64,000 nucleotides of DNA. It comes from Nereocystis luetkeana (taxonomy: Eukaryota > Sar > Phaeophyceae > Laminariales > Laminariaceae). Shown piece by piece: positions 1 to 63,009 of this stretch. Position 1 is the stretch's first letter. Every line of letters starts with the position of its first letter. Both the position numbers and the translations under genes were made by a program. Location of the stretch: contig JARUPZ010000025.1 of NCBI GenBank assembly GCA_031213475.1, positions 7,884,656 through 7,948,655 of the forward strand. The letters run 5' to 3'. The notes under the pieces were generated by a model. The model was not told the DNA's origin. It saw only the letters and a program-made list of their open reading frames with translations, and searched no databases.

Positions 1-2428
1 ACGACCTGACCGTTAATAGTTCACCCGGCTATATCCGGTACTTCCCACAGAAGAAGCAGTTATCGCGGTCGGGACGGCGTCGAAATAGTGGAATAGCGGT
101 GGATGGGCCTTCCCGGATGACAACAACCACCAACGGCTCCTGTATAAATTCTTCTTTGTGACCGCGAGGAAAAACATCAGTTTCCAGCAATAATACAACT
201 AACTGCTACGTCGCGAGTCGCAGCCACTCCACTCTTTCTTAAAGCGCCTGCTCAGACATCATGCTGTATGTCGCTCTATAGTACTGTTGTGTACCCCGAT
301 GTGGTACACCATCAAGTAAGTAAAGTGCTGTGTCGTGGTGCTGTATAATATGGTAGTAGTTAGTTGCTGTTTGTATACATGTCAGGTTGTTTGCGAGTTC
401 GTCTTACGGGTACGTTGCCTTTCTTTGTGGATTATTTTGCACCCTAACACTTCTTGCAGCACTGCGGCAGCAGCAGCAGCAGCGCAATACACTGCAGTGG
501 TACTGTCGGCAACATTGCCTCCCGGCCTTGCACAATAGCCTGTACAGTACTGTACTTGACCAAAAGGCGCAACGAACGACATGACACGCCGGTTCCCCCG
601 GACCTGGTCATTCTGTTATGGGCACACTGCGCCTATATATATGCGGGTGTACTCCTATTATTATTACTATATCGCTGTTTGCCATAATAATGCAGTGGTT
701 CGTACTGTGCATTTGAACTATCCCAACATAAAATGTATTACTCACACGACACCATCAAGAGTAGTTTGATTATTTAACATTTATTTGTTGTTCACCAGTT
801 CTAGTGCCTTTCTCAATCCAACGAGTTGTTATACCGCTTTTAAGGTCTGCCAAAAATCTCGCCCGTTATATTGAAATAACGTGGGTGCTCGTAATAGCAA
901 TAACATACCAGGTAGCAAATTTCGATGACACCATGGGCCACTCTATCGGGACCATTACCTGTACCTTGCTGCTTGTTGTGGCCCCGAGGTTAGCCGAAGC
1001 GCGCAGGCGGCATGTTCACAACTCCAAAAACGGAAGGCACGTACCAAGTCGAGTAGACAATATTATTCGCATTTCCATCAAATACTTGAGGTACCTGCGT
1101 TATATCGTACAGCAACAGAGATGTTTATCATTAACAACCACCACGGAAGTAGCAAAGTTAGAGAGTGTCTGGACTGATGCGGCATGCCGTTTTTCTACTC
1201 TCCTAGTACCCGGTATGTGCTTTCCCACGTAATATATACGGAAATCGCGCAACGACAGCCATCGACGTGAAGTCAACCATATACCAGTATACGTCTTCGC
1301 AGCCGATCGCCGGCAATGAAAACTCCACCGAACCTTTGGCGACGATACCAGAAAAAAATATGAATCCAATCGAAAATGTTTGGATCATAAAAATAAACCA
1401 ATACCAGGTATACACCTGATACCCTACCTTTCGACTTCCATTCTGTTGTTAAACGATGTTTCGTCGTAGCCAGTAGTCACTAGGAGTAGTAGTTGCAGTA
1501 GTGTGGAGGAATTCAGCGTAGACATGGACCACGGCTGGTCCAGGATCACTGCCGCCGTACCATACCGAGAACACATGAATCATGTGATCTCTTTGCGGCA
1601 AACGATGATGATGCTCACAATGTACATACATACATACATACATACATACATGCGAAAGTTGAAGGTGGAGCTGCCTCGATGAGATGACCACAAAAAAGGG
1701 TTGAAGCAACACGCATAGCGAAGGCTGTCCCTTCCTAGGTTTGTTTGTCGGCTACAGCTGCCACCTCCCATCTCAGGCATTATTACCCTGTAACGTACTT
1801 TATGTATTAGAGGGGATTTTTTTTTAGGCGGTAGTCAGCATGGTCTAGTCGCTCCTTGATACCACAAACTTGCCTTGATACATGTAACTCATATACACCC
1901 ATCCAATAGAATCGCTGCCTTCTGTTCGACATCACATTTGAATTTGGTATCGCATTACAGGGTTCCGCTTCTGGATGTGTCATACCTAAACTCCCGGAAT
2001 AGTCGCAAGTTGAAGACGGAGGTCAGCGTCATCGTCTTGCGTCCGTACTTACTAGGAACACTAATACGGCTGCATAGTGGCGTGTGATGGGACGAGGTCA
2101 GACGACTTGACAATTTGCTTGATAAAAAAAACTGTACATGAAAATGTGTATTTTGCTAAATGAACTGTATATATATATCTGGTGCACACTGCAAACCCAT
2201 CCATATATGGACATTGTTGTTGGACTACTACTGTTCTTGTAGCGCGTACTGTTGGTGCGCGGTTGTCTTTGAAAGGCCGAGGAAGTGTGGGATTTCATCT
2301 ATCTTCGTCCTTCCCGCTTCGCAGCATCATAGGGGCTGCACTTTTATTTCGATTGTGTATAAGTATGATGTGTTCATTCCTACTTTCTAGATCGACAAGA
2401 ACCAAAGCCATTCACACGCACACACACA
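1..2428. other. Intergenic DNA without recognisable gene
   Basis: Only short ORFs are present and none resembles a known protein. The longest, 142 codons at 804-1232, contains a TACCAGGTA scar-like motif and shows no domain. A (CATA)n microsatellite lies at 1622-1652. The right end, just before the copia insertion, is a short CA-rich stretch. Confidence 0.6.
1622..1652. repeat. (CATA)n microsatellite
   Basis: About seven tandem CATA units are directly visible. Confidence 0.9.
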
Positions 2429-2433
2429 AGTGT

Positions 2434-2734
2434 TAAGGGATCAATTCGAGCACCGGGTACGCTTGGGTGATGCGTGGGTGGGGCTTGCCATGAGGCGGTG
2501 GGTAGAAGAAGTAGAAAGGTATCAATTATTTTTAGTGTACTGGTGGACTGAGAGCAAGGGGGCCACGTTCCCCTAGACTCTATAAGACCCCTGAAAGCAG
2601 GTCAAACACAATTTTATGCAACTCCTCGGGGAAACACTAATCCCGCCGCAATCTCCGTAGATATATTACATTTACAAGAATCACACAATTCAGTACAATC
2701 AGAAAATCAGACTTTGGTACGAGCAAATCCCACA
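2434..2734 (-). repeat. Copia-1 3' LTR
   Basis: 301 bp, matching 9404-9704 at all but one position. The outer edge abuts the AGTGT target duplication at 2429-2433. The inner edge abuts a purine tract (on the minus strand). Confidence 0.96.
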
Positions 2735-2747
2735 TTCCCCCTGCTCG
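2735..2747 (-). promoter_or_regulatory. Copia-1 polypurine tract (plus-strand primer)
   Basis: Read on the minus strand this is CGAGCAGGGGGAA, immediately before the 3' LTR, where retrotransposons prime plus-strand DNA synthesis. Copia-2 has nearly the same block (CGAGCAGGGGCAG) at the same place, which supports the assignment. Confidence 0.75.
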
Positions 2748-2992
2748 TTTCACAGTCCTGATAACTCTCGTCCGGTCAAAATATCAAAAATAAAACGTAT
2801 GCATCCAACGCCTTTAATGATAACACCCTGAAATCTCAAAATAAAATAACACAGTCCGAAGGAAGGTCACTAAAGTGTCAATCATGGCTAACGATCATCG
2901 ACACCCGTTGGGATTAACACGAATTTTACTAAGGTACTGGCCATGGCTAACGATCACCAGTACCCGATGGAATCAATACCACACCAATAGAG

Positions 2993-4414
2993 TCACCACA
3001 TATTCATCGCAAGGCTTCGGTGGAACTCGAACGATTCTCGCGAGATGGCCTTGGTTAGGAAATCCGCATGCTGAAAAGGGGACGGTACGTGGATGATCGA
3101 TATCTCTTTCCTCCCAACCAGTTCCCTGAGGAAGTGGTGTCGCACGTCGATGTGCTTGGAGTTTGAGTTGGTGATAGGGTTCTGTGCAAGCTGCACCGCA
3201 CCCTGATTATCCTCGAACACCGGTATGCACGGCATGCCTACATCAGGCAACATGAAGCGCCAAACCTGCCTCAAGAACAACACTTCCTTAATGACGTCTG
3301 CAAGTGCCACGTACTCTGCCTCCGTCGTGGAAAGTGTGACGCATTTCTGAGTCCTAGAAAACCAAGACACGCATGCACCCCCACACATCACCAATCCTCC
3401 TGAAACTGACCTTCTGTCAGCCGCCTTGCTTGCATAGTCTGCGTCAGCAAACACCTGCAAGCTCAGCCCCCCGTCCGTACCTCTCTGAAAAGTGACTCCG
3501 AAAGAACTAGTCCTCCTCACATACCCTAAAATACCAAGTGCTGCCCTCCAGTGCACTAACTTGGGAGCAGCGCAGTACCTAGCCACTGCTCTTACTGCGT
3601 TGGAGATGTCTGGCCGAGTCTGAGTTGAAAGCCACATCAGTGAGCCAACCAACTCGCGAAACGGCCAGCTCCCTGGCGCTTCATCCTGGTCAAAGTCCGC
3701 AAGTTTTGTGCCAACAGGGAGCGGAACACTCTTTCCAAACTCTATCCCGTATTCATCCGCCAATTGTTCAGCGAATGTCTGCTGGGAAATCTTCAGCACC
3801 CCCTTTTCCCAATCCCTCTCGTAGAAACACCCCGAATACCAACGCAACTCTCCCAGGTTCTTAACTGGAACCATCTTGTCCAATTCCTTGCCAAACTGGT
3901 CACACCTTGCCTTCTCCCCTACCGCAAAAATATGATCCACATGCACCACTATAGTCATCACTACTCTCCCCTCATCCATCAAACGAAACACGCATGCATC
4001 AGCCAGACACTGCTCAAACCCTAAAGTCAGTAAGCACCTAGTGAGGTGAGCATGCCACTGCCTCGATGCCTGCTTCAAACCGTACAAGCTCTTGTTCAGT
4101 CTTACTATCTTCCCCGACAGTCTACCGCATCCCTGAGGCAAACGCATGAAAACATTTTCCTCAAGATCAGACTGCACGAAAGCCTGCTCAATATCAAAAT
4201 GGCACAAGTCAAGATCCAGCTCGCATGCCATCGCTGTCAACAACCGAACACTCGAGACAGCAACAGTGGGCGCAAACAATTCTCCGAAATCGATGTCAAC
4301 TCTCTGCTCATCCCCCCGTGCTACAAGTCTCGCCTTAGTTTTCGTGGGCCAACCGTACTCATCAGCCTTCCAATCAAAAACCCACATTGCGTTGATGTAG
4401 TTATCCATTGGTTG
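2993..4414 (-). CDS. Copia-1 reverse transcriptase-RNase H (readthrough domain)
   Basis: This frame continues directly from the gag-PR-IN ORF past the UAG at 4415-4417. An AUG lies three codons downstream (4408) and could be an alternative start, but in-frame continuity favours readthrough. The RT begins with the copia hallmarks INAMWVF, KARLVARG and LFAPT, followed by SLYGLKQASRQWH. RNase H follows with ADADYA, STTEAEYVAL and EDNQGA, then SKHIDVRHH. These are the regular copia RT_2 and RNase H blocks and the length is normal. Oddity: the active-site box, YVDD in most copia elements, reads HVDH here, with the codon at 3932-3934 encoding His in place of the second catalytic Asp. The same position in Copia-2 is Asp. 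The enzyme from this copy is therefore probably inactive although the frame is otherwise open. Confidence 0.93.
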   Translation of the reverse strand, partial: QPMDNYINAMWVFDWKADEYGWPTKTKARLVARGDEQRVDIDFGELFAPTVAVSSVRLLTAMACELDLDLCHFDIEQAFVQSDLEENVFMRLPQGCGRLSGKIVRLNKSLYGLKQASRQWHAHLTRCLLTLGFEQCLADACVFRLMDEGRVVMTIVVHVDHIFAVGEKARCDQFGKELDKMVPVKNLGELRWYSGCFYERDWEKGVLKISQQTFAEQLADEYGIEFGKSVPLPVGTKLADFDQDEAPGSWPFRELVGSLMWLSTQTRPDISNAVRAVARYCAAPKLVHWRAALGILGYVRRTSSFGVTFQRGTDGGLSLQVFADADYASKAADRRSVSGGLVMCGGACVSWFSRTQKCVTLSTTEAEYVALADVIKEVLFLRQVWRFMLPDVGMPCIPVFEDNQGAVQLAQNPITNSNSKHIDVRHHFLRELVGRKEISIIHVPSPFQHADFLTKAISRESFEFHRSLAMNMW

Positions 4415-4417
4415 CTA
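4409..4417 (-). promoter_or_regulatory. Leaky stop site TAG-CAA-CCA between IN and RT
   Basis: On the minus strand the gag-PR-IN frame ends GTG TAG CAA CCA ATG and the RT frame continues without a shift. The six bases after the stop fit CAR-YYA, the consensus of tobamovirus-type stop-codon readthrough. Copia-2 has TAG CAA TCA at the homologous place (53305-53313). Function is inferred; the sequence match is direct. Confidence 0.7.
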
Positions 4418-9346: not shown

Positions 9347-9403
9347 GGTGCTGCACCCTGTGCCCGAGCGACCGTGACTATATGTCAATGTCTAACGCTA
9401 GCG

Positions 9404-9704: not shown

Positions 9705-9709
9705 AGTGT

Positions 9710-10393: not shown

Positions 10394-11730
10394 ATGAGTC
10401 AGTCGTTTCCGTACAACAAAGGAATAATTTTGTTTTCCTTTTTGATTCTAGACGAACGAGTTTTACGCACTCTATGTGTCACCTTTGTAAAATGGTTCAC
10501 GTTGTATGTTCTCGGTCGTAGGCATCAATGCCATCGAGAAAGGCGCCAGGACGTCACCGGGGGTGTTGACCCACCGTGAATATGACAAGGCAAGACGAAT
10601 CAACTCCTACACGCGGTTTCGATTTGCAACGAAACCCTAGTTCGTTTTTTCCCTCTTGTTTCGTCCGAATCAATTTTGATTGTACCACGTAAACCGCAAA
10701 CTCTGGTTTATTTAGTGATTGATGCGTATCAAGACCAACAAGGGTCGATCTTAACGAGGGCTGTTTTTCAGTTTTTTTTCGGTATTGTCTCGAAATTTCG
10801 GTATTTCTTGGTTTCTTCCTATAATAGGAAAATACCGAAAATTCGGGAACATACTGAAAACAACTGAGAAACACTCTTTGTTAAGATCGACCCTAAAAGA
10901 AAATTAGATTCATCATTTTATGCGTGATATCTCCTCCTCACTATAATTGCTACACAACGCAGTACCTGGTATTGGTTTCTGGTGCAAGCAAGCGTTGTAT
11001 TGTATATTATCAGACGCATGCCACCATAGAGAGGCAGCACGTTTTGACCCAAAATAGTTCGGACTAACGGAGTTTCTCATGCCCAGGAGGTACGAACCAA
11101 TTGTGATTTTACGCGCAGGCTCGTGTCCTGCCGACAATGCCGGATGTCATGGTATTTCATGATGAGCTACGTGGTATAGGGGCAACATGTCGATCGTCCA
11201 GCCCCGAGGTTAGTCCTTATCCCCGCAATATAGTTACGAGTAAGTCCTTCTCGGTTTCGATCATTCTTCGAACATTATCATTCTTCGAACATTACTTGCA
11301 ACATCTGAGTCGGGAGAGATACAAGGTTCCTCAAGTAGCCTCAGAGATGATAGGTGGTGTGAAGTACAGCAGTATCACTACCACCGAGTAGCACACGTCA
11401 TCAGACGTGTACTGCAGTACCGAAAAGTAAAACCCAGTACCCGGGTATCATACTCTTTGTGTACCACAGGAAACACTCAACACCACACACCTCGCCGGAC
11501 AATCTTTCTTCGCCATTTCGCCAAGAACAGTGACACCGCACAACCTCGAGGGACGCGTGTAGCTACGAGAATATAAATACAAGTATAAACTCGTTTGCTC
11601 TGGACGGTCGTTGTGAGGGCGTTTCCGTAGCCTTTCGCAAGATTGTCAACTAAGATTCGCGAGAACTTTGGACTTTTCGCGAGTAGACGGATTTCATTTA
11701 TTTTTTTCCGGAATTGTTTCAACAGGACTG
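10394..11730. other. Intergenic, no gene seen
   Basis: Short ORFs only. It contains one TACCTGGTA motif at 10963-10971 and a small direct repeat (CATTCTTCGAACATTA) near 11265-11294. No domain or RNA gene was recognised. Confidence 0.5.
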
Positions 11731-12624: not shown

Positions 12625-13855
12625 TGCTGCTGCTGCTGCACCTTTTCCTGCTGTTGTTACCCTGCGAGCCTACCGCCCCTGATGCTGCTTTTCTCGTTTC
12701 AGGTTGGTTTAGGTAGTCCTCGTTCGCGTTGTTGCTGTTGTAGGGACCTTTGAGTCAGTGTCTGCCGCCACTGCTGCTGTTGTTTATGCTGTTGTTGTTG
12801 ACATTGTTGCTGTTCCCGCACGTTGTCGATCTCCGGCACTGAATTTGCAACCAAGATGTTTTTGCCCTTGTGTTTTTTTTTACGAGCTCAAACCGAGATA
12901 TGGGTATGGTACGCGTATTCCCTGCTGCTGCCGCTGCTGTTGTTGTTGTTGTTGTCCTGTACAGCCTGCATTCCTCTTCACACCGAAGCAGGTGTCTACC
13001 TTCGTTGTTGCTGCTGTTGTTTACCTGGTATGCTGTTGGTGGTGGTGTTGTTGCTGTTCCGGCACGTAGTCGACCTTTAGCACTAAATCCAAGACGAAAC
13101 ACGTATTAATTTCCTCAGTGCCATTCGTTTATGTGCTACTGCGCCTACTGCCATTTGCTTTTGTGCTGCTGCTGCCGCTGCTACTGCCGTGGTTGTTTAC
13201 AGCCTGCGTTCGTTTCCGCAACAGTGTCTACTGCCGCTGCTGCTGTTGTTGTTTATGCTGTTGTTGTCGTCGTTGTTGCTGTTCCCACACGCGAGAACAC
13301 GACTTGGTGCCGCAGCCCGTTCCTGCTGCTGCTCCTGCTGTTGATGCTCATTCTCCTGCAGCATGCTGCTGAAACCCCGCGCGCCTATCGCCCCTGATTG
13401 ATGTCGATTTTGTTGTGTGCGCAGACGTCCTTCGCGTTCTTGCTGTTGTAGGCAGCTTTGAGTCAGTGTCTGCCGCCGCTGCTGCAGTTGTTGTCTATGT
13501 TGCCGTTGTTGGCGTTGTTGTTGCTGTTCCCGCGTGTTGTCGACCTTCAGCACTAAGTATAAGACACGAATACATACCAGTACCAGGTACTAATTTCGAG
13601 ACTTTTTTTCCACACTATAACCCAAAATTTTTTACTCTTTCGTTTTGTTTGATACGAGCTCACACCGAGACAGGGGTATGGTACGCGTACTGCTATTTGT
13701 ATATGCGCTGCTGCAACCGTTGTTGTTTTTTTGCACACCATATCCAAGTTTTTTGTTTCCGGACAGTTGCCGTTATCGTTCACAGCCTACGTTTCTTTTC
13801 ACACCGAGACAGTTGTCCACCGCCGCTGCTGCTGTTGTTGTTCAGACTTGATAGC
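12590..13855. repeat. Tandem duplication of about 710 bp, rich in CTG/TTG triplets
   Basis: CTTGGTG(G/C)CGCAGCCC recurs at about 12591 and 13303, and GAGTCAGTGTCTGCCGCC at about 12752 and 13460. A segment with ACGAGCTCA, ACCGAGA and TATGGTACGCGTA follows in both. The units are full of imperfect TTG/CTG triplets (Gln codons on the minus strand) and have diverged by substitutions and indels. Confidence 0.8.
13022..13030. repeat. TACCTGGTA scar-like insertion
   Basis: The context GTTGTTTA-CCTGGTA-TGCTGTTG compares with uninterrupted GTTGTTTATGCTGTTG at about 12780 and about 13248 in the same tandem family. The only local difference is the 7-bp addition. Confidence 0.85.
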
Positions 13856-14661: not shown

Positions 14662-14839
14662 CAGGTCAGGAAGGATTGTGTCTACTGCAAAGAAACTACC
14701 AGGTATCAAGGATAACGACATCTTGGTCACCCTGTGCAAGCCTAACCTGCACTTCTCGTCCTCCAAGCACTCCAGGAAGCTCTTCATCGCCCACATCGAG
14801 CAAGTTCAGAGCGAACGCCACGGGATATTCGGCGAGTAG
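14662..14839 (+). CDS. Possible terminal exon, unknown protein
   Basis: After a pyrimidine-rich TTTTTGCAG acceptor-like site at about 14655-14663, an open frame runs to TAG at 14837-14839 (ending HIEQVQSERHGIFGE). Nearly all third positions from 14709 onward are C or G, unlike the A/T-rich surroundings, which hints at coding. The opposite strand is also open over this stretch but shows less third-position bias. No upstream exon was found and no family recognised. Confidence 0.25.
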
Positions 14840-24122: not shown

Positions 24123-24196
24123 CAATACGACACCCAGTATCAAACAGTGTGCCCGCCGATTCATCAATCTTCTAGAGTGTCGAGCTCTGTGGTCAC

Positions 24197-25644: not shown

Positions 25645-25919
25645 AATATCAATCAACCACGAGTGAGTATGAATAATAAATGTTCAATAAGAAAGTAATT
25701 TCAGGAAATCTCGGAAACCGCGTCCTTTGTCGGTGACGTCAAAAAAAGCTACCTGGTACAGCTGTGAAAACTCGCATTCGCTTGAGATACGATAACATCC
25801 TGTTTCGGCAAATAAGCCTCCTGGAAATTATTGTATTATTTTATTATTTCCTATCTGGCAGCAGTGCATACATTCCAGTTTTCAATACCTGGTATGAAGT
25901 ATTCATACTCGTATATGTC

Positions 25920-26340: not shown

Positions 26341-26436
26341 CGGGCGACCATCGTAAATAAGACCGAGTATTTCGTTATTAAATAGTAAAAAAAGCGAAAT
26401 ACATAATCTCCGTCTTCACCGTAGGTCCTACCAGGT
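26341..26436. mobile_element. GGGGGACC-family MITE, copy M3 (decayed)
   Basis: Contains TAGTAAAAAAAGCGAAAT and GTAGGTCCTA matching the 27.2-kb copy; its right part holds a TACCAGGTA insertion. Confidence 0.55.
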
Positions 26437-26437
26437 A
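26429..26437. repeat. TACCAGGTA scar-like insertion
   Basis: CACCGTAGGTCCTA-CCAGGTA-TTTATTAC compares with CACCGCAGGTCCTATTTACTAT at about 27266-27287: 7 bp added, flanks otherwise 19 of 22 identical. Confidence 0.85.
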
Positions 26438-26556: not shown

Positions 26557-27182
26557 TATGGCCTCTCGTGATAGTGGATTTCGTTTTCATGAAGGTGTGT
26601 ACTGCATCACTTTTGTTTCTCGAACGGATGTAAAAAAGGGCATTGACTGTGTTCGCCACATGTGGCATCATGCCCATTGAGTTAAACGAGCATCAACTTT
26701 GATATGGAGTAACGACAACACGTGAATCATCGTAAGCTAAAGCAAAGAGGGAAGTAAGCATATACATACCTGGTACAGTAGAAGGTAGATGTACTTTTTT
26801 TTGTGCGTAGGTGTCCTTTGTTTTCGGGTGTTTCCTCTCTCAGGAATGTTTGGGGTGATCAACGCTTCAGAATATCCATCATGCCGCACACTGTGGGATG
26901 GCAAGCATAGGAATAATACTGACAATACTCCAGGAAAGTAAGTAAATGTGATGCTCTTCCGGGCTGTAGACATCATAGACACCATCATCTACCACCTCCG
27001 AAGAACCCGGTACCACTGCTCACATAGCACAACCAGAACTATAGTACTGTAGTATGTATTTGCATCGATTTGTACACGTTTTCAGTATAGAGGCAGTTAG
27101 TTCGTCTGCACAAATAAGCAATACGATGGTACGCGGGGGGATGACCCCATTCTTTTTTTTTACGAGTTTTCAAACGAAGTAT
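26557..27182. other. Intergenic, nothing recognised
   Basis: Short ORFs only; one TACCTGGTA motif at 26767-26775. Confidence 0.4.
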
Positions 27183-28890: not shown

Positions 28891-28906
28891 TACCTGGTAC
28901 CTGGTA
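28891..28906. repeat. Double scar-like motif TACCTGGTACCTGGTA
   Basis: Two TACCTGGTA units share a TA, as if the second insertion used the TA made by the first. Confidence 0.7.
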
Positions 28907-30345: not shown

Positions 30346-32040
30346 CAAGATCGCTTCACGTGAACGAAGAATAGGCACACAAGGAAAAAAACCTGGGAAT
30401 TGTAATGCGCGCAGAAATTTGCGAACATTCTTGCGGCCGCAGGACGTACCAGGTACAATTCAATAGCTCTGACGGTGACGACAGGTTTGTTGTTGGCTTG
30501 GAGAGTCAACTATAATAATAACACGGAGTTCGAACGATCGTCAATGCGCAGACACAATACTTTTTTACGGCGTGCTTGCTTTTGGTTCGTATTCCAGAGG
30601 CAACGGAGTAAACCAGCCTGATGAACGACTGGCGAGGGCCTGGAGCAAGCGCAAAGTGGTGGTGACAGTGGGCGGTTCGAGAAAGCTCAGGCGGGAGCTA
30701 CGTAAGAATTTAGTTAAGGCCGGGACTGCTTTACTTGTTTGTGTGCCTTAAGGTGCTTCTCCAAACCTCAACCACAAGAAAATACCGAAGGTCCCTCGCC
30801 GCCTTGTGAGGGAACCTTGGAACTTGAGCAATCAATTCCCTGGCGAGGCGTGAGCCCACCGGGGGGGGGTGTCCAAAACAAACGGCGTCTATGTGAAAGC
30901 GACACGTGACACGGACTTGTGTGGAAAGGCCTCGGGAATTGAAGAAGACCGACTTCAGGAGACCGACGTCGTAGATCACGAAAAAGGCCTACCGTGTTGG
31001 ACTCTGGTGCGACTCGAATCCTGAATCCTGAGCGTTCGTCGCATACAATCATTGGCGTCTCTACCGATTGTTGGTGAGTTCTTGCAGGGGACAAGAGCAT
31101 CATGCAGAGTCGTTTTACAACAGCAGTGCTTATACTCGTACTACGTATAGAATTAATGGTATGATGTACCGACGTGGAGTCCACCTCAAATGAAAGTATG
31201 ACGTGTGGCGGGCGGGCCCTCTCCGTCTTGCCAGTGGGGGATAGCGACGCTCCACTCCACTGGCAAGCGTTTCACGCTGCGTACAAGCTGCTATAAGAGT
31301 CCATGCCTACGGTACAGTTCGTAGTTAGTTGCTGCCGTACGTACTACGGGCAACCGTACAAGCAATGTCGCCTCCAGTTGCTTGTGTAGCGGTGGAAAAG
31401 GGAGTGAATCATTACCCAATGCACCTTCTTTGAGTCGAGGGTATCTGGGTATTGCTCCGAACGACGTAACTTCGATTGCTCTGTTCTGACGGTTTTTAGC
31501 ACTGCTGTTGGCCCGATGTGACTGCTGAAGCTTCCAAGAATTCCTGTTTGTGAATGCCATTTCACGGGTAGCAGTACACGCGAAATCAATACCACCAGCA
31601 GTCGACCGAGAAAGCCCAAGTCGGGTTCGCCGCAAATCGAAAGAAATGTCGAAATACGGAAAATAGGCGCCTAACTGATCGATCGCTGGCAAGCGGCTGC
31701 GATATTGTTGTGAGAGTTAGGTTCGGCTTCTTCTGCCAACCTGACACGTTATTATTGCTCGGTTGCTGTGCAGTGGACGGCGGCAGTGAAGAAACATTGT
31801 GTTGCGAAAATTGGTTCAAGATCGGCACGAACAACACGAAAATTTGGGTCAAGAAAAACCCCTCAATTATCAACATAGTAATATAGTGGGATCAACTCCA
31901 AAACAGTCCTATTAGTACTACCACGGTATATACAATAGGGTTATAGATCACTGTCGGAAAATTGAGACATCGGGTCTAGACACGAAATTAACGATTCTTT
32001 AATTATTTTATATATGTGGGGGCAAAGCACTCAAAATATA
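30346..32040. other. Intergenic, no gene supported
   Basis: Short ORFs without domains. One TACCAGGTA at 30447-30455. Confidence 0.4.
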
Positions 32041-32088: not shown

Positions 32089-33984
32089 ATGGGCCTGTCT
32101 ATAGAAAGTACAAGCTGAAGGTGTAAGGCCGAACCGTAGATGCTGCTGTTTGTTTCGTTGGAAACTAAAAACATACCGGTATTTATTTTTAGTTCGCATA
32201 CACTCTCGTACGAAAGGGGCGCCTGCTGTGCTTGGGAAGATACGTCGATCTGATGCCGGGATTCGACTTCTGATGTGGCTAGGAACAATGACTAAGCGTC
32301 GGTCACTCTTCGCTCGTCCAGTCAGCTGCTACAACCGAGCGAGTACTTGGGTGAAATGACCGAGATCAAAAACCGAGCTATTTTCCGGTCGAGTATTCGG
32401 TCGGTTATATATTACGTTCTCAAGCAAAAAACGAAACCCAAACTCTGAGGCATAGGCCGGATTTCGTATTTAAAAAAGGGTGCATCCACCATCACTTCGT
32501 CCAGTGTTATGCCCGCACCCCGCTTTCCTACTTGTCACTGCTACTTGCTGCTGTTGACCTCAGGCTGACCCTTTGATCAACCTCTCCCGGATTTTTCATT
32601 TTTCACTCTTCTTACTATTCATAAATAAATGTAGAACTGGTATAAAATCTCACCCTGTTTATATTTCTTTTCACGTACTATGTATTGATACCGAATAAAA
32701 GTGTTACTGTCTTCCCCTCTATGTTTTTATGTATGTATGTGTGTGTCCTATAGGGGTGTATATACAGATAGATGTAGATGCTTAACATGGGACAGGGGAT
32801 AGGGGATGCAAACGCCGATCCATTCATATATATCCGGTCTGCACTCTAATGAGATAAGCGAATATATTATATCCGTATGTGAAATGTTCGGATTCGGTTT
32901 ATCGCCACCGGATTTCGACTCCCAACTAAATAACCGACCATCGGTCTCGGTGCCCGACTCTGGCGAAGTACTTCTAGACAATTTTCGATTTCGATACAAA
33001 TATCCCGACATTTGAACGTTGGGCACCTGACCCTCAGATCAGTTTCTTTGCCTAACGAGAATACAAGGCTCATATTCTTACGACAGAAGAAGCTTCCACT
33101 GACGACCACCCATGCGATACTGCCATATATATACGTTATTCCCCATGCCTTTTTTTTTCTGAGAATACGTCGGTATCGAGGAGTTCCTCTTCTTGCACCC
33201 TCAATCAAGCGCGCTGGTTGACAGAGTTTCCCTTTGTTACTATCAGGTATGAAATATGAATAGTGGTTTCATCCAAAGTCAACCAGGCTCGTTGAAAACC
33301 GTTGCTCGCTGCTACCAGGTATACCAGTAAATTTCCCTCCCGCGTCACACGTGGCGGGTGGCATCAATTTCCTGTAACATTTCGGCGAGATCTGCTCGCG
33401 AGTTCTTTCTCTGGTCAACCGCGACGACTATTATCTGCTCGCGAGTTCTCTGGTCAACCGCGACGACTATTTAGAGGGGCAGTGCTGGCCTGCTTATGCC
33501 GCAGCTAGATAAGAGATGTCAGAGAGTGGGCAACGTCTCAGAATCGGTTTGGTAGACGAACGGTAGTCAATCTTACCATTCCTGCCTTAAGTACGACTTT
33601 CTTCTGCACTCTCTCTTCTCTCGTCTTTTACTTGTTTGTTCCCTTGGTTCTTTCTACCTTTCCCTCCCTCGCCGTGCTTTTGCCGGCATCTCCATCTTCT
33701 TCGTGTTGCTTCGCGCCTGCCTGCAGCAGTTATCTGTTCCCGCGAGCACGTACGTAGGTTTACCTTTGCGACAACAAGTAAGTGGCCTTATTTTATGACT
33801 ACTTTACTTGTACGTCTCGTTTGATTATGTTCCATTCCGAAAGTGTTTAGTTTCTTGTTTCTACCCGTGTATTGTTCTTGTTCATAATTTCCGGTCTGGC
33901 TTCTGCTGTCTTCGCGTACTCAGTATCTTAATTGGGAAATCACTTGGCTTACCCATTATGTCTCAACGTTTTTTGTTTCTGGGG
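32089..33984. other. Intergenic with a 43-bp direct repeat
   Basis: No gene supported. Two near-identical units at about 33391-33433 and 33434-33473 share CTGCTCGCGAGTTCT and CTGGTCAACCGCGACGACTA; they differ by a 4-base indel. Confidence 0.6.
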
Positions 33985-36340: not shown

Positions 36341-36864
36341 GTGGCCACATTACTACCAGGTATCTCTCCAGCATACCGGTTTAGCAGGCCGTCGAGTGGA
36401 AAGGACGGCAATACAACATAACAAGAACTCAAGACAGCAAAACATCTAACCACGGGTTTCGGTGTCGTTGCTTGCTTCGTACGGACATCCTCATCATCTC
36501 GGTAGCCCTTTTTTCTTGACGGATTGTCGTATACCTGGGATATAGTATGCCTGGATTTGTCGCCATGACCATATATATATAGTCAAGTGGCGTATGCCCG
36601 TCATTGAACATCTATCTATGCATAAATATGTATTTTTGTGTATGGGCGAAAATGGGATCTCATTTTGATTTGGCGTTGAAGATAAGATATATATATGCCC
36701 AAGGTTCACGAAAAAACACCAGCGAAAGCATGCATTTATTTCTGGTTCCACGTCACGTGAACGCTGTATTTCCATATTTTAGAATAATACCTGTATGATA
36801 GGAACGACATGTATGTGAGCGCTCGGGGGATCGTGAGATCGTCAAACTTTGCGACTGGGCTTCT
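36341..36864. other. Non-coding, nothing recognised
   Basis: No domain-bearing ORF; a TACCAGGTA motif at 36354-36362 and short TA runs. Confidence 0.4.
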
Positions 36865-37245
36865 TTTAGGGAAAATTCCAAGATAAGGTGTATCTGATTC
36901 GTTCGAGATAAACTAAGGTACATGCAAAAACCAATTATAAACGCGCGCCACGAGCGGTGTTGTGTCCATGAAAATTCGGAAAAAAAACGAATACGCCTAC
37001 GACGTAGTAAGTCATTTGAGCGTGCCACATGGCCTCCAAAATCTAAATTGTACCAGGTATTGTTTTCAATAGGACTTTTGTAGGCACTACGTGCCCCACT
37101 TGGTCCTGCGGAGAGTCACTATTAATAGGCTTCGCATTCCGCCACGGCGGGACCGCCAAGAGTATTTACTCTGGCGCCTCCCCCCCGATGGCACCAAATA
37201 CTGCTCCCACCCAGCAACCACAGCTGTTTGTGGTACGACCAGCAC
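36865..37245 (-). repeat. RepA, partial copy 3 (inverted)
   Basis: On the minus strand it matches 42250-42540: GGCGCCAGAGTAAATAC, GCCTATTAATAGTGACTCTC, TTGGAGGCCATGTGGCACGC, ACACCGCTCGTGGCGCGCGT. Confidence 0.85.
37051..37059. repeat. TACCAGGTA scar-like insertion
   Basis: On the minus strand GAAAACAATA-CCTGGTA-CAATTTAGAT compares with GAAAACAAAACAATTCAGAT in RepA copy 2 at about 42367: exactly 7 bp added. Confidence 0.85.
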
Positions 37246-41407: not shown

Positions 41408-41634
41408 ACATAGAATGTAGGTGTCGTGCCTGTCGTACCTAGCTAGTATGATGCCATGGCATGGCATGGCATGGCATCGCCAACTGCTGTGCTTACTGCA
41501 TACATACCTGGTACGTGGCAACGCGGTATATCTGTGGCGTATCTCTTCTAGGATTGAAGAATCGGCACGGACACTGGTTGTGCTGGATGTCGACGGGTAG
41601 AAAAAACGGTTTAATGTGAAGAACACACACAGCA
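41408..41634 (+). mobile_element. 5'-truncated LINE 3'-end copy
   Basis: Same last 200 bp as the LINE (TGTCGTGCCTGTCGTA...GTGAAGAACACACACA), directly behind the first copy. It contains TACCTGGTA at 41515-41523 and a local ATGGC repeat. Confidence 0.85.
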
Positions 41635-41669: not shown

Positions 41670-42545
41670 AAAAGGGTTTTAGCCAAAATCAGGTATACCT
41701 GGCGATTTTTCGGCCAAAATCAGTTACATGCTAAAAACAAGTACAAAACACACACCAGGAGCCCTGCTATTGGCCAGGCTCGCAGTGTCTCTTTGGCACG
41801 AAAAGGCCAAGGTATACCTGTTTTGTTCTACTTTGTCTACCTTTCAACTGATTTTGGCCAAATTTGAACCAACCAGAGCGGCCATACGTACACTGTTTTT
41901 TTCTCTCCGTGTGCCTCTGCCCTCCCTTGGTTGGAATTCTTCTGTATTACCGTATAAACTCTACTTGTACGATGTACGTAAATGTACGTATTTACACATG
42001 CATTGACCCGTACGCTGGTTTCACTTTTTTCTTCCTAAGGGTGTGCGACGTGCTTCATGTATTTAATAGTTGTTGTGATGTGTGGTCTGCTGCTTTCTAC
42101 CTGGTATGGCCACAGCAGTCTATACAGCACCATGGTCTTTGTCTGCACCACCCCGCGTCGAGGTGGTCGCAGGTTTGGTACGGCAAGATAATTTCGTGCG
42201 GAGCAGGTGGTTCCGCGAGGACGGTCTAGACGATTTTAAGCTGTCAACGGTGGGGGGGCGCCAGAGTAAATACACTTGGCGCCCCGCGGTGGCGATACAA
42301 ACGCAGCCTATTAATAGTGACTCTCTGCAGGTCCAAGTAGTGGAGCCCGTGATATTTGCACCCTAAAGAAAACAAAACAATTCAGATCTTGGAGGCCATG
42401 TGCATGTGGCACGCTTCATGCTTTAGGCGCTGTATTGATTTTTATGGATTTTCATAGACATAACACCGCTCGTGGCGCGCGTTTTTCACTTGGATTTAGT
42501 ATATACCTGATTCTGGCTCGAACGGATCAGGTGTACGTGTAGTCT
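41670..42545 (+). repeat. RepA copy 2 (uninterrupted)
   Basis: Reference copy for 33985-36340 (plus) and 36865-37245 (minus). It shows no ORF with a known domain. It contains several self-complementary stretches (AGGTATACCTG). Confidence 0.8.
42098..42106. repeat. TACCTGGTA scar-like insertion
   Basis: GCTGCTTTCTA-CCTGGTA-TGGCCAC compares with GTTGTTTTATATGGTCAC in RepA copy 1 at about 34402-34419. Removing 7 bp gives a gap-free 18-base alignment. Confidence 0.85.
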
Positions 42546-49441: not shown

Positions 49442-50279
49442 TGACTCTAGAAGACCACAGTCACTTTAGACGGTCCAGACTGGGACTTGGCAAGAAGGTG
49501 TCGCTGCGGTAACGCCGCCGCCATTTGAGGACAGCACAGGTTGTGTTACCGGGTCACGTCGCGACGAAATACGTAGCGTAACGAATTATCGAAGAGGGGG
49601 TAGGGCGGATTTGACGGTCGCCCTACGATGCAAAGGGTATTCTATATAGCTGTATGCGATACGTACTAATGTACAGGTAACGAACGTAGGGCGGAGATAA
49701 ACCTGGGGCGGGCGGTAGTAACCGAGTACCAGGTACCGCTTATTCCTTCTGAGTTCTCTCGGCGGGGATGTATGTACCTGGTGAGGCGTTCTACGATAGA
49801 GGTTCACCCTAATTTTCATGAGGCTCCTCACTTGAGGAGCTCCGTGTCTCATCCAAAAACTGATTTCAGCAAAAATAAAATGCATCACGGCGAATAATCC
49901 CATGGCCCGAGTCTACAAGACGTATTTGTTTTCGACATCAAGATTGACATTCCGACGATTTAGGGTCAAGGAACCCCGTCTTTCAGAAACAAAATAGCGG
50001 AAATGTGCCACCTCTATCGTAGAACGGGTCTGGTGCGTCACGCATGTGAGGTAACTGGTGTTCGGAGCATAAATCACATTCAATGGAGACGTCTGGCAGT
50101 ACATACGTCAAGACAAATCGATACCGTAGGGGTCCAGCCGGTACACCAGAAGCAAATATACGATTACCATATGTAGTCGCGGGACTGCCGTCCGATGTTA
50201 GCAGTGGAATCCGTATTGTGCTCCGTCCTGCCGTCATTACGTACTACCAGGTACGGTTTTTGATATAGCACCCGGTGGT
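49442..50279. other. Intergenic, nothing recognised
   Basis: Short ORFs only; TACCAGGTA at 49727-49735 and 50245-50253. Confidence 0.4.
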
Positions 50280-51067: not shown

Positions 51068-51944
51068 TGCCATCATTTTCCGCTATATCAATGCAATAAC
51101 AGGAAAAAGTCCATAATATATCCTCCTTTCTTTCAATACTCTTGATAAAATCATGCATTCTCACAACCATAGTCAACAGGCTAGATAAACCACAAAGTAC
51201 AATAGTCCGTAGATTAGATAATTGTGAACTCAAACCATAGCCTCAGCTAGATCCCGATCACTTTTAATACGATGTCAAACTTCTCAACACAACCTGTCTC
51301 TATCATATCGGTCATCCTCAAATTAATCACAAACAACTCAATTCGAATTGACTATAATGTCGCCAAATAATGGGTGATCAATCCATTATCGTCTCCATCA
51401 GTCTCAATTTCGAACACAAATGATTGCTCAATCATCAAACACACCCACAAAGTAACGCCAAGTTATCATACAGAGAAAATGTCCTGTCCAACACTCCTGT
51501 ATACCAGGTATGTCTTTCTTTCTCTGTGCTCTCTTAATTCCTCCCCATAAAATCCACTATCGAGCACATGCTACTGCAGTGTCCTCGATACAAGTTTTCC
51601 TCCTCACGAATCCAAGTCAAATATTAAACATATAATTCCTCCTCACAAATATCATCACATAAAAATTGAAAACAAGAAACCCCCAAGACTCTGAAAACCA
51701 AACACGTCAGATACGGTGGCGAATACCGCACCAGCAATAATCCAATCATCACACAATTAAGTCGGAATCCAAAACGACATGGCACTACTTGCAATTAGAT
51801 ACCACAATTTTAAGCCTCCTCATGATCCAAAATATCACTACAAAAACACGTTCAACCAGTCTTCCAACACACGGTTCTTTCCAAACCCAACACAGAAAAC
51901 ACTATCCCTCACTCCAAATATTCATGGCAATGCTCCTGTGGAAT

Positions 51945-55528: not shown

Positions 55529-55563
<35 letters not shown>

Positions 55564-57331: not shown

Positions 57332-57343
57332 GAGACACTAGTT

Positions 57344-57708: not shown

Positions 57709-57713
57709 CCGAT

Positions 57714-59552
57714 TGTACGGCCTATGGGCATGTACCGGACAATGCTGCAAACGAACCGGCCTTGAATAGTTCTTCGGACGCGTGGTACCGCAGTCGAGGC
57801 AACCCTCTTTTCTTGGAGCTCCTCCCTCGAGCTCTATATTTGACCTAAGACCTGATGCTGGGAAAACGCTAGTCCAACGATATTTTGGGTTAAGGAGCCC
57901 GGTCAGTCCTAGTGACGTGTTTCGTCCCAAATATGTCACTCCTGTCGTGCGTCAACACCAGAAACGAGTGTGTGGGAACATCTCGTTAACACGTTTGTCT
58001 CGAGACACGTCGCTCGGTGTATGCACCCGGGCTCAATATCCGTCAAAGGGGGGTGTGCTCTCTTGCGTGATATACAGTATGTACCGAAGGGTGTTTGATA
58101 TACCACCTTAACCATATAGGGCTTCACTCACCGGTCCAATCGACCGATGTCGGTGATATCGTTTTTTAAAACAATGCTGTTCATTGCCGTACACGTGTGG
58201 GAGTGTAGCGCACGTACTCCCAACTTGCGAGGTCCGTTTCGACTAAGTAAGTAATACAAGGCGCTTACCTCCGCGGGTGGCCTACGCCTCCCTCTATGCT
58301 CGCTCAGGAAGGACAAGTGTATCAAATTACTCTGCGAAGCGGACAGAGATTCATGACTAAATATAGTTATTTTTAATATGATCGTAGTAGCACACTGACG
58401 ACTTGATATTGCCTAGAGTCCCGCCGCCATGCTTCAGGAGAAAACAGCTCGGACGCCAGATACTTTTCGCATCGCGGGTGGTTGCCGCGCGTACGTACAT
58501 ACCCCACGTAGGGTACCTAATTTAATATTTTGATATGCTCCATTATTTATCAAAAAGGAGAGAGCACAGCACGGCACAGCAGCACAACAGCACCGCAAAA
58601 ACGATGTAAAATGAAAACGAAAATTCGGGAAGAAAAAACACCCGTCCCTCTCCTGACGTAATTTTCTGCCTGATTTCAACCCTTCGCACCGGTCAAAAAA
58701 AGAAAAAAAGAATGAACAGTAGAGCTTCTCTCTCAGCCTCGCACGCCGCCCGCCCCTCTCGCGACCACCTCGCCACCGATTCGGTCCGGGTAAAGATTTC
58801 CTCACTCCCTGCCATAGTCAGCCCCGTCGCCCGCCTCGCGTGAAGGCCGGTGCTCACCGTGGCCGTCAGTCGCCGGCTCGGCAGCATTGGTACTCAGACT
58901 GGGAGCTCCCTCTCAACGTGGTTACTTAAATATATATGAACAGCTTGAACATTATATTGCATTTTCCAACGATCCTTACATCTCGTACATACTCTATCCC
59001 AAATCGCAATTTGAGGCCAGACAGAGCCCGTGCATGCATCCCTCGTGTCTCGAGGCACACGCGACGCCTAGGTAAGCGGCGACCTCGCTCCTTGCAGCCC
59101 CCCCTCTACCCATCAGCATCCGCTGACACCGGCGACGGCGCCGGGCTCCCCCGCCGTTCCGTGCTCGGAGTACACGCACGCACACGAAACGGAAGAATAA
59201 CAAAGGAAGAAAGGACCGAGAGTGCTAAGGAATATGGGGGAAACGAAGAACGGCTGGAAAGGCCCGCCAAGTAATAAAAGGAGGTGGTTTCGAAGTGGGA
59301 GCTCTGAGAGGTCAGAGATGTACGAACCGAGCACGTTCAGGGGTTTAGATCTACGTAAAAGTGTCTCTATTGAAAGGGGGCGTTCTCGGGACAAAACAAG
59401 AATGAAAAACCGTGGAGTGACGAGAGGGGACGTATGTAGGGTGACGAGATCCCAGCAACTAATTAAGGAAGACGGAACGCTATACGGACATACATGTACA
59501 GTAGTGTTCATAGTGCCGGTCGACTTCTAGCACCGGTTTTTGTCGCGACCAC
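57714..59552. other. Intergenic, no gene supported
   Basis: A GC-rich patch at 58730-58880 has open frames on the minus strand but no family match. The rest is unremarkable. Confidence 0.4.
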
Positions 59553-60720
59553 GCTGACCTCTGGCTTGAAACCAACCGACAGATCCGCCTCCTGAGGTCG
59601 TGACTCAAACGGTTCGGCCCGACATTGTTTAATATATTATATGGTAGCACTACTGTCCCGCTTAGCCTAGAAGCTCAAATGGATGATGATGCTGGACGAG
59701 GTGTGGGTGTACGACGTGGACCCTCAGAGCGAAACCTTTTGCCAAGCCTATTTTTGGATCACAACCAAGTCCTCGTATTATACGTTATAAGCTATCAACG
59801 CTGAATTTCGTACCTACCACTCCACCCTCTCGTACGCGAAGGCTCTCAAGATGACACGTTGCGACGGCGTCGTAACGGACATCCATATATGTGGCGGCTC
59901 TTTTGTGTGTACAGCACGGCAAGGTAAAGCAAGGAGCAATTACACATTGATTGGGGTAAAATTCGAGACGGTTGCTTGTGAGGAGAACCCGAGATCAGAG
60001 GGCCAGTTGAAGAGTTGGTATATACATAGTCGAATGCCTTCGAGATTGCCAAACTACCGAAATATCAACGCAACACTCCCAACTAAACTGGAGTTTGGAG
60101 TAGTTGAGAATCCGCTGTAGTAGCCCACTGCAGCGTAAATATCGGGAAGGGGTATCAAGGGGTCCTCATCAGCAACCAACCGCTTCATTGTGAAGTGGCA
60201 CGAGTGTGAGTAGGCCGCGCCGCGTATCCTCCTTAGTTAGGGTGGTGCTCAAGAGAATGTTAGGAGCAGGGCGCAACAACAGGAGGAAGGAGTGGAAGGA
60301 AACTCGACCACTGGGATGGCGGTAGGGGGGGGCACAGGCGGAGTAGATGGGAAACCAAGGTGATATCATACAGTAGAAAGGAGACCGCGGATGGGGTAGG
60401 AAGGCGCGAGGCTGACCAGCAAGGACGTGTCTGGCTGCAGCTCGTCGTTCGAACGTCATATTTTCTTTTTTCCTTCTTCTTTTTGCGACTGATCCTCTGT
60501 GGTTGTCATATTTGTGGCTTTTTTTCACTCTTCCTTTTTGTCCTTATGGCAGGAGTCTTGTGGCGTGGGTGGACGACGAGCCTTTTTTGCTTGTTTCGTA
60601 TCGACTGGCGCATCTAGTTGTCTCTCGCTGAACGCGTTCTGTATTTTATGCCGTTTCTCTTCCGCGGGGGGTATGACTCCTCTCTCTGTGTGTTTATTTC
60701 CCGAGTTGCATTTTTGGTTG
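59553..60720 (+). mobile_element. Heavily decayed LINE copy (C-terminus and 3' UTR)
   Basis: Nucleotide similarity to 39580-40700: CGACxGATCCGCCTC, CAAACGGTTCGGCCCG, CTCTCGTACGCGAAGGC, ACACGTTGCGA, GTGGCACGAG, then CTGATxCTCxGTG and TGTGGCGTGG. It carries many indels and stops. Confidence 0.8.
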
Positions 60721-63009
60721 TTTGTTTCTCCCTTTCATATAATAATGTGTATATTAGATATATACTCGGTGTCTCTAATGATCATCGTAACTAATACACA
60801 ACAGAGCCGAGAATAGACTAACTAACAACCAAAACACGGAACAAGCCAACCAAAAAAAAAGGGAAAAAAAACGTGTGTTCTTCGCTTAAACTCTCAACTG
60901 TCATTTGTACCCGTCAAAAATGAGCACGCACACCACGTAGTCAGTGTCCGTGCCGATCGTTCACGGTTGCCCCAAAATAATGGCGTTTAGCCCTTGCCGC
61001 GGTAACGCAGTAGTAGGCAGAGTAAATCACGCAAGCCCATGTCATCGTATTACGTTCCGTTTTGGGGACAGACCACTCAAATAAATATAGAATACTATTA
61101 TAGGTGTCGTCACGAAAGTAGTGGGGCTGCAGCACTCGAGAGTCTGAGGTAAAAAATAGAAGCAAAGGCCGTAGAAACGGAGAAAAAGGCGATGAAAAAT
61201 CCTGGAACAACATGGGAAAGAAAGAAAGAGAAAGGTCCCCGCCACCCCTATGATGTGGCAGACAACACAAAGCACACGAAAGGGTAAATTATAATGTATG
61301 TATGTGGGTAATAATGTTGGATTTCGAAACCCAACCGGTCATCGGTACGACAAGGTAAAACATTTACCAGGTAGGTAGTCGATATCGGTGTTGATAACGT
61401 TAATAATTATCGCTGCAGAACCAAACACTCCGAACCGTCGATAAGGTAGACGATAACGGGGGCGACAAAACCGGCGTAAAAATCACCCAAAACCCACCCG
61501 CCCATTTCGCTCTTCTTGCTTTTAGCGGGATGCACGCGATACGCTCGATGATACGAGACTCGAACCTACACGTCTCCACCATGTACGAACTGCATAGGTT
61601 CTGCGGCTCTTCAGCGTACACTGTGGGTGCTATGCTGCCATACCACCTGTAATGTTCCATGCGTGTTCATGCCTAATGTTTTCATTACACATCTCTGCCG
61701 GGAACAGTCTCGGCCGTGCTCGCGTCGTGTCCCGGGAGGCGTGCTGTTTCTGTATTATTATTGTTTTGCATGCTTTCAGGTCAAATCTTCTTGATTGATA
61801 CTATACTAGTATTATTAGTACGTATACTATCACTACTAGTATTGTTGTAGAGGTTGAGGTGCGGATCGCCTGTGATTTTCCCAAGTTGAGGCGGTTCTGC
61901 TCCCGGCGGTAGTAGACACGTGTTCTGGGCATGCTAGGTCCATCAGTTGCTAGGTACACCTAGCGCCATTTTTTACGGGAGGTGCTCATCCCCTAGCGAG
62001 ATTAAACAATACTCCGTACTGTGCCAGATACTACTAGCAGCAATATGTTCTTCAGCGATATCAGTGAACATAATGTTCATCAGTTAGGGCTGCTGAGGGA
62101 AACGCTAATCCCCAAGCGACCCCAGCTCCCCCGGTGACCGGCGACTCACATCTCTGAGGGTTTTATCGAAACACACAAACGTCGCTATCTTACACGCTGC
62201 GTTTAGACCTTCGGCTGGTTAGTATTTACCCAAGAGCGACGATGCCTTGTTACAGTTACATCGCAGCGGCTTGTGTTTCACTCGAAATCGAGCCCCTGTA
62301 GGCTCTCAACAGAGAGAGGCCTACAACTCGATTAGAGGTGCCGCAGAGAGAGGTCGAAAATGGTTGAAATTCGAGGTGCACAAAATTTGACAAAAACCAC
62401 CCCCATCTATCTGAACGTCTGCACTTTACTCTTCCCTCGCGGACAGCCTCAGCTCCCCATACATAGGAAGTTCCAGCCGGCAAAATTGGAGGAAGCTTAT
62501 GATAGGGTCTGTGAGGGCGTTGGTTGCACCAGGCGGCTGTCGTGGGCAGCGAGAAACGACTCACGAGGTGTTTGCGCGAGTGTAATGTTGCGAGCGAGTG
62601 ATGATACAAAAAAAATCGCTTACACGATACCAATTTAAATTTCACGCAACGAACGGAGTATATCACAATGACTACATTAATTATCGATGAAGAAATGACT
62701 TTCACTAGAAGATTGCTCTTCTTCAGTCGGACAGTATATCGTTTATGGAGTCGTCGTTAAAGATTCTGCTGGACACACAACTAACTGCGTTCTCGTCATG
62801 GGTGGGAAGTTATTGAGTCCACAAATAATTGTGCAAAGGTGGGCGAAAACACTCAGGATTATCGTATACCTGGTATATGATATAATATGTGCGCCAACCA
62901 TTCCAAAACCGAGAAATACCCATCTTGGTTGCAAGCCCCTCAATCTTGTTCCAAGTCGTACGTATTTGTTTGCCGAAATGCCTACGCGCGGGTACTTGAC
63001 GCATTGCTG
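60721..63009. other. Intergenic; one LINE-end remnant
   Basis: At about 60870-60960, GTGTGTTCTTC and AGTGTCCGTGCCGAT match the minus strand of the LINE 3' end. No gene supported. Two TACCWGGTA motifs at 61365 and 62867. Confidence 0.45.

Follow-up and report, generated by a model that had tools for sequence, protein, structure and literature searches.

The question raised here is why a single nine-letter word, TACCWGGTA (W stands for A or T), recurs throughout a stretch of brown algal DNA. The stretch, called the window in the following, comprises 64,000 nucleotides of the Nereocystis luetkeana genome (contig JARUPZ010000025.1, assembly GCA_031213475.1). A first-pass annotation had read the word as the 7-bp scar of a TA-targeting transposon. 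We analyzed the window together with further sequence from the same assembly and consider it probable, at roughly three in four, that every TACCWGGTA records a single insertion and subsequent excision of a very active TA-targeting cut-and-paste DNA element. For brevity, the copies are called scars. The earlier interpretation is supported in part, namely by the enrichment of the word in a genome sample, by TA as the target and by exact 7-bp differences between paralogues.

Enrichment of TACCWGGTA in the window and in the genome

All 23 copies listed previously are present in the window, 13 with an A and 10 with a T in the centre on the plus strand; one coordinate was corrected from 41515 to 41505. 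The annotation had placed this number far above chance, which agrees with the shuffled sequence: dinucleotide-preserving shuffles of the window contained 0.34 copies on average and 3 at most, and none reached 23. An order-3 Markov model predicts 0.62 copies. The expected counts were computed on sequence that includes the scars themselves. The 48 one-mismatch neighbours of the word were found 15 times in the window (12.5 expected), which is near background and marks TACCWGGTA as a sharp-edged word. Half-sites, in which TACCWGG or CCWGGTA lacks the second TA, occur 17 times, with an order-2 expectation of about 17. The window contains 926 different words of the form TA-X-TA, of which TAATAATA ranks second by probability, with 14 copies (2.55 expected). 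The words ranked after it have 2-4 copies each, and several are pieces of scars or of a family resembling miniature inverted-repeat transposable elements (MITE-like family).

For the genome sample, 30 stretches of 10 kb were taken at round coordinates from six contigs of the assembly (C1, 21.87 Mb; C2, 21.15 Mb; C3, 17.25 Mb; C5, 13.57 Mb; C12, 11.67 Mb; C25, 9.65 Mb), 22 of them from one contig. Labels such as L131, L143 or L154 denote these stretches, and the number after a colon is the position within the stretch. None overlaps the window (no match of at least 98%). The first 24 stretches (L128-L151, 240 kb) contain 59 copies of TACCWGGTA (31 A, 28 T; 1.5 expected) and 6 copies of the 9-mer with a C or G centre (2.0 expected). 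All 30 stretches (300 kb) contain 76 copies (39 A, 37 T), for which order-3 statistics predict 1.96. The word was found in 26 of the 30 stretches, at about one copy per 4 kb outside the window, and its density falls with the G+C content of the stretch (r = -0.48). When 9-base palindromes with a free centre were grouped, 372 classes were observed in the stretches, with TACCW at 76 copies and the runner-up class at 15. Since the word is enriched in 30 further stretches, its enrichment is a property of the genome beyond the window. By extrapolation from 76 copies in 300 kb, about 75,000 copies would exist assembly-wide, if the contigs are numbered by size and the assembly accordingly measures at least about 295 Mb.

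Filled and empty sites

For identification of paralogous sites, the window and the first 24 stretches were searched with 79 of their 82 sites (3 near stretch edges were dropped). A paralogue aligned across the motif for 22 sites. Nine of these show a 7-bp gap, four are empty in the paralogue with a larger gap, at four sites both copies carry the scar, and the alignment is not clean for the remaining five. The nine sites with the 7-bp gap are L131:9881, L134:8154, L135:7563, L137:1556, L140:4322, L149:9637 and window positions 13022, 37051 and 42098. Four of the nine have more than one empty copy (two or three). The empty counterparts of L135:7563 lie in L151 and L138 (86-87% identity), and those of L137:1556 are a neighbour at 92% and L138 at 91%. 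L149:9637 has three empty copies, all of them inverted arms of the MITE-like repeat and one located at window position 50282. At sites with several empty copies, insertion is more parsimonious than loss. The filled copies read TA-CCWGG-TA and the empty ones TA, which places the integration at TA; a duplicated TA is indistinguishable from an inserted one.

Larger gaps were seen as well. L131:9674/9681 is a tandem scar sharing one TA, and its paralogue lacks 15 columns. At L133:9564 and window position 41505 the gap is 11 bp (7 bp plus 4 more). In L136/L137, a duplication of 91-94% identity, four scars occur in both copies. Presence or absence of a scar differs between copies that are 90-92% identical. 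A 6-bp variant, TACCAG at L137:7755, coincides with an empty/filled difference.

The same was observed in two further comparisons. In BLAST alignments of window paralogues (E 1e-6), 4 of the 23 sites lie inside alignments, three of them in an exact 7-bp gap and one in the 11-bp gap; as a control, only 35 of 14508 aligned window positions (0.24%, scar sites included) fall in any 7-bp gap. A motif-blind scan of clean paralogue gaps of the form TA-X-TA yielded ten 7-bp events, six with the core CCWGG. One of the six, L132:5269, is doubtful (71% alignment, unclear in the paralogue search), and a seventh CCWGG event, at 37050, is listed under a shifted core.

The annotation had named four filled/empty pairs with a difference of exactly 7 bp. 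Two of them were recovered as claimed: 13022, compared with about 12780 and 13248, differs by exactly 7 bp from 12772-12844 and 13198-13291, and 42098, compared with about 34410, does so from 34359-34429. The other two hold in part. For 37051 and about 42370 the length is exact, but the empty copy has TT instead of TA. For 26429 and about 27275 a match by eye covers 18 junction bases with one difference, but two local alignments did not recover it. Alignment of repeat-family copies with and without the 7 bp added exact differences beyond these four pairs. The sites of the window and their empty counterparts are as follows (no strand assigned).

906..914, scar, A centre, exact 9-mer
1402..1410, scar, A centre, exact 9-mer
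10963..10971, scar, T centre, exact 9-mer
12772..12844, empty paralogous site of 13022, from alignment
13022..13030, scar, T centre, exact 7-bp insertion compared with paralogues at 12772 and 13198
13198..13291, empty paralogous site of 13022, from alignment
13581..13589, scar, A centre, abuts TACCAG at 13575; L142 paralogue not clean
14697..14705, scar, A centre, exact 9-mer
25750..25758, scar, T centre, exact 9-mer
25886..25894, scar, T centre, exact 9-mer
26429..26437, scar, A centre, inside MITE-like sequence; empty site at about 27262-27286 by eye only; L149:9637 is the same site type, scarred
26767..26775, scar, T centre, exact 9-mer
28891..28906, two overlapping scars (28891, 28898), TACCTGGTACCTGGTA, exact 9-mers with a shared TA
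30447..30455, scar, A centre, exact 9-mer
33313..33321, scar, A centre, adjoins TACCAGTA at 33322
36354..36362, scar, A centre, exact 9-mer
37051..37059, scar, A centre, 7-bp insertion compared with 42317-42402 (minus strand; empty copy TT)
41505..41513, scar, T centre, 11-bp gap compared with two empty copies, 28647-28771 and 41114-41238
42098..42106, scar, T centre, 7-bp insertion compared with 34359-34429
49727..49735, scar, A centre, exact 9-mer
50245..50253, scar, A centre, just outside the MITE-like repeat 50281-50391
51502..51510, scar, A centre, exact 9-mer
61365..61373, scar, A centre, exact 9-mer
62867..62875, scar, T centre, exact 9-mer

The overlap of the scars at 28891 and 28898 is what a second event at a TA of the first scar would produce.

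Target site preference

The sequences flanking the scars share a symmetric target preference, which was derived from the window, was confirmed in stretches that had not been used to derive it, and was not among the earlier claims. With position 1 next to the TA, position 7 is A or T in 39 of the 44 window flanks (familywise p < 1/5000 against the TA background) and position 6 is T in 24 (familywise p 0.01). Position 1 is A in only 2 flanks, which is not significant (familywise p 0.18). At 17 of 22 window sites A or T stands at position 7 on both sides, compared with 30% of TA dinucleotides. A leave-one-out flank matrix within the window gave a z of 5.6. Trained on the window, the matrix reached z 10.0 over the TA background on 109 flanks from 24 independent stretches and z 11.0 on 137 flanks from all 30 stretches; for the latter, near-identical flanks were collapsed and the tandem-repeat stretch L147 was dropped from the background. 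Among these 137 flanks, A or T occurs at position 7 in 112 (51% expected), T at position 6 in 66 (22%) and A at position 1 in 12 (21%).

As controls, the matrix was applied to related words in the 240 kb. C/G-centred words gave z 1.4 (6 sites) and TA(CCAG/CTGG)TA gave z -0.95 (40 sites), whereas TACGAGTA-type words reached 3.7 (41 sites) and one-mismatch words 5.5 (33 sites). The flank signature is missing from the bulk of the TACCAGTA-type words. Seen from one TA of a scar, the TA at the far end occupies positions 6-7, in agreement with the occurrence of tandem scars. A palindromic target preference is described as usual for DDE/D recombinases in general (PMC5481204), and for Passer a palindromic target around TA, AAGTACTT, was reported (PMC9976928).

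Search for a donor element and a transposase

The annotation had assumed that the donor is not in the window and had suggested a search for elements with TA-CCAGG...CCTGG-TA ends and a Tc1-type transposase. Pairs of TACCWGG...CCWGGTA with matching inner sequence were collected up to 8 kb apart, which gave 292 pairs in 304 kb and 363 pairs in 364 kb. Longer or rare donors would escape at this span, and 364 kb is a small part of the assembly. The 363 pairs contain one strong match (L143:388-440) and otherwise chance-level scores, and no element of the suggested type was accepted among them. In the window itself, inverted-repeat pair search, half-site clustering and Pfam scans of 49 kb all failed to find a donor, in line with the assumption. 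The Pfam scans, made in six frames (10001-52000 and 57001-64000), revealed no transposase and only RVT_1 near 38.8-39.5 kb; for 1-10000 and 52001-57000 the domain search covered selected open reading frames (ORFs).

Several candidates were rejected. L143:388-440 is a perfect 53-bp inverted repeat or hairpin with CCAGG/CCTGG ends beside TACCAGG. It was read as a fold-back duplication, since its 29-bp stem passes each TA by four bases and similar arm sequence is present in the paralogue L142. The third-ranked pair, L154:4800-7776 (TACCAGG...CCAGGTA), matches in 14 of 19 inner bases, but 1.8 such scores are expected among 363 pairs, a figure that is raised by duplicated segments; on inspection, without a family search, no transposase or element structure was recognised in its ORFs. 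Clustering of the sequence inside 195 full and 104 half sites revealed only duplicated segments, tandem scars and repeat interiors, and no shared sequence resembling an element end. The half-site cluster TACCTGG-GTTCTGGCACTGGGATCG (five copies) was dismissed as an element end as its upstream sequence is homologous too; the clustered half-sites share homology to the left and right of the TA and thus belong to the interior of repeats.

The tandem-scar pattern was also looked up in sequence collections, where it occurs in 9 viral and at least 118 genome-contig stretches. The motif was counted in all 127 loci and the sites were read in six, all of which proved to be 7-base tandem repeats. In loci of Acidimicrobiia and Chitinophaga metagenome-assembled genomes (L018, L038, L041, L044, L063), the tandem repeats have a degenerate 7-base unit of the TACCTGG type.

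Proposed mechanism and alternative explanations

Enrichment in the genome sample, TA as target, the 7-bp insertion and the target preference are all predictions of an element that integrates at TA and excises again. What we infer beyond these observations is the former presence of the element, its termini, the 5-nucleotide stagger, the joining pathway and a relation to Tc1/mariner/IS630. The pattern looks like integration at TA by a DDE transposase, followed by excision with a 5-nucleotide overhang. The element would pick a TA in a weakly palindromic target, in which both flanks have T at position 6, A or T at position 7 and little A next to the TA, and its integration would duplicate the TA. 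Excision would then cut five nucleotides inside the element ends on one strand and leave 5-nucleotide overhangs. Between the two CCWGG overhangs, CC could pair with GG, so that four of the five bases would be matched and only the central A:A or T:T would not, and end joining would seal them nearly always alike to TA-CCWGG-TA. We assume that the product is so uniform because of this pairing. In its mechanism the element would work like Tc1/mariner, by analogy and not by established membership.

Two arguments of the annotation need revision. It had taken the balance of A and T centres (13:10) as evidence of mismatch repair, but TACCAGGTA is the reverse complement of TACCTGGTA, so that an A centre on one strand is a T centre on the opposite strand at every site, and a ratio of about 1:1 follows from strand symmetry. 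The element had also been called unusually precise. The bulk of the TACCAGTA-type words, being without the flank signature, agrees with this, whereas the 6-bp variant at L137:7755 does not.

A further idea is more tentative and in our view rather doubtful: an almost purely conservative TA-targeting element, or a domesticated transposase, may have removed nearly every insertion, so that uniform CCWGG scars would number in the tens of thousands while hardly any element is left. The near self-complementary 5-nucleotide overhang could then be a device for clean end joining, possibly favoured in the haploid stage, because an excision gap there has no homologous chromosome to copy.

Concerning age, one-mismatch words occur 62 times in the 240 kb (42.5 expected, an excess of about 20) beside the 59 exact copies. 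Part of them look like decayed scars, because a subset carries the flank signature. By a rough calculation of our own, which assumes a steady rate over a limited time, the oldest scars are near 9% neutral divergence. This agrees with scars that differ between 90-92% identical copies and with those shared by the 91-94% identical duplication.

Several observations weigh against excision of a transposable element. No donor element, terminal inverted repeat or transposase was found in the searched parts of the 364 kb, so that scars far outnumber the donors seen (none), which would be unusual for a cut-and-paste family. TACCWGG half-sites in the 364 kb are slightly above expectation (104 compared with 82). 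Five of the 22 sites with paralogues are not clean (L129:7650, L132:2254, L132:5266, L143:388 and window position 13581), some additional copies for 13022, L134:8154 and L137:1556 align less cleanly, and the empty copies of L149:9637 are short, with 44 columns each at 82-84% identity. Furthermore, five bases between the TAs exceed what the consulted parts of the literature give for Tc1/mariner (2-3), Ppmar2/Osmar5 (1-4) and Passer (0-4 bp).

The main alternative is a palindromic binding site, for a transcription factor, an origin or a chromatin protein, which is kept by selection and includes the flanks. We regard it as unlikely. A near-perfect palindrome with symmetric outer positions would suit such a site, and so would the scarcity of one-mismatch neighbours in the window, as under selection. 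However, nine sites differ from their paralogues by a 7-bp gap and not by substitutions, the density outside the window is about one site per 4 kb, and sites also occur inside MITE-like repeats (26429, L149:9637). In the wider sample, the excess of one-mismatch words, with a subset carrying the flank signature, points to unconstrained decay.

It is quite improbable that the 7 bp were themselves inserted, as a micro-insertion made at TA by some transposase, integrase or polymerase, and that no large element was ever present. The very uniform product and the lack of a donor or element end in 364 kb would be explained in this way, but excision footprints yield the same product by known chemistry, and we know of no enzyme that adds a fixed TA+CCWGG.

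Programmed removal, a ciliate-like excision of TA-bounded elements by a domesticated transposase in the sequenced tissue or life stage, appears very improbable. It would account for uniform joints and for scars without any element seen. Inheritance is, however, the simpler explanation for the scars shared by the duplication in L136/L137, there seem to be decayed scars, and excision of internal eliminated sequences in Paramecium is described as precise (PMC3464196). An origin by chance, from low-complexity sequence, from a single longer repeat consensus or through faulty assembly, which the location of some sites beside TA or TACA runs might suggest, is refuted at the level tested by the excess over the order-3 expectation (76 against 1.96), by flanks that are unrelated except in duplicated segments and tandem scars, and by presence in 26 of 30 stretches from six contigs.

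Other repeats in the window

A possible second scar class is given by TACTCGTA at 34955, a 6-bp insertion compared with two paralogues; nine other TACGAGTA/TACTCGTA sites are located in the window. The word occurs 10 times in the window (1.9 expected), or 9 times after collapsing paralogues (2.4 expected), and 69 times in the 240 kb (13 expected), 28 of them in L147. Its flank signature is weaker in the 240 kb (z 3.7) and there is none in the window (z -1.2). This class resembles the Minos footprint.

The MITE-like inverted repeat family has ends like ATTACGGGGGACCATAG and was identified at 9886-9998, 26440-26556, 27180-27298 and 50281-50391 of the window and also in L149 and L150. One copy carries TATTTAATA at 26509, a 7-bp insertion at TA compared with the paralogue at 50282. 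Another family, of repeats about 340 bp long with about 89-98% identity, is located at 23768-24125, 25919-26260, 29166-29367 (minus strand), 34430-34767, 37582-37928 and L150:5138-5500. It is possibly a short interspersed nuclear element with a tRNA-like promoter motif, GGTTCGAGCCCC, presumably box B; ARAGORN detected no tRNA gene in this family. At 63031-63540 lies an imperfect inverted repeat of 510 bp, which aligns with its reverse complement at 80% identity and with 18 gap positions.

A Copia-type element lies on the minus strand (2434-9704), with 301-bp long terminal repeats of 99.7% identity and a glutamine-rich gag region. The annotation had reported the motif as absent from this young element and from an ORF of a long interspersed nuclear element (LINE); indeed, there is no TACCWGGTA in the Copia element (1.7-2.6 expected), in a second Copia element or in two LINE-like ORF regions. 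The Copia reverse transcriptase (2993-4414) shows at most 81% identity to proteins of Ectocarpus sp. CCAP 1310/34, and two unnamed near-full-length proteins reach 86-87%. A search of viral contigs with this reverse transcriptase and two exact repeat patterns revealed no relative.

Comparison with known systems

Minos and Sleeping Beauty leave a few terminal bases between two TAs as their footprints. For Sleeping Beauty and mariner, a three-nucleotide stagger and an end-joined footprint between two TAs are described (PMC7827188), and in ISY100 the non-transferred strand is cut two nucleotides inside the end (PMC2170065). The scars described here are similar to these Tc1/mariner/IS630 footprints in the TA target, the duplicated TA and the few bases between two TAs, but they differ in the five-base core, in the lack of a detected element and in their number, which by extrapolation is in the tens of thousands. 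In Ectocarpus, 17 Mariner-Tc1 families with almost 12,000 copies, mostly non-autonomous, were reported (PMC12477816), which makes Tc1/mariner machinery plausible in brown algae; the main text of that paper does not contain the word excision.

Full-text literature searches for TACCAGGTA, TACCTGGTA, TACCWGGTA and CCWGGTA, mostly outside subscription papers and preprints, gave no title on transposons or genome-wide motifs. No literature on excision footprints in brown algae or on a genome-wide footprint census was found, and related searches showed no such motif in titles or the beginnings of abstracts. If excision of a TA-targeting element is the right explanation, transposition history can be read from a nine-letter word, each scar being one polarised event. 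The scars would provide genome-wide target-site logos without an experiment and markers for the population genetics of brown algae, and they would show directly how often excision prevails over retention. They would also lengthen the footprints described for TA elements and hint at an element that is active and precise, in a group whose transposon biology is underexplored (PMC12477816).

Other systems share single features. HIP1 of cyanobacteria is a short palindrome iterated across the genome as well and was discussed together with DNA methyltransferases (PMC4390886). In contrast to HIP1, for which we assume an origin without insertion, the sites described here are 7-bp insertions at TA compared with their paralogues and show a target preference. 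Internal eliminated sequences of Paramecium are bounded by TA and in part derived from Tc1/mariner elements (PMC3464196), but their excision is precise, whereas 7 bp remain here. Passer footprints comprise 0-4 bp (PMC9976928). The footprints of Stowaway, Osmar5 and Ppmar2, which were recognised as phylogenetic scars, consist of short terminal-repeat fragments between two TAs (PMC1925063, PMC9632168); those of Stowaway are described as joining fragments of both ends, and their total can reach or exceed five bases. These footprints are varied, with fragments of 1-4 bases, whereas the scars of N. luetkeana are essentially one product.

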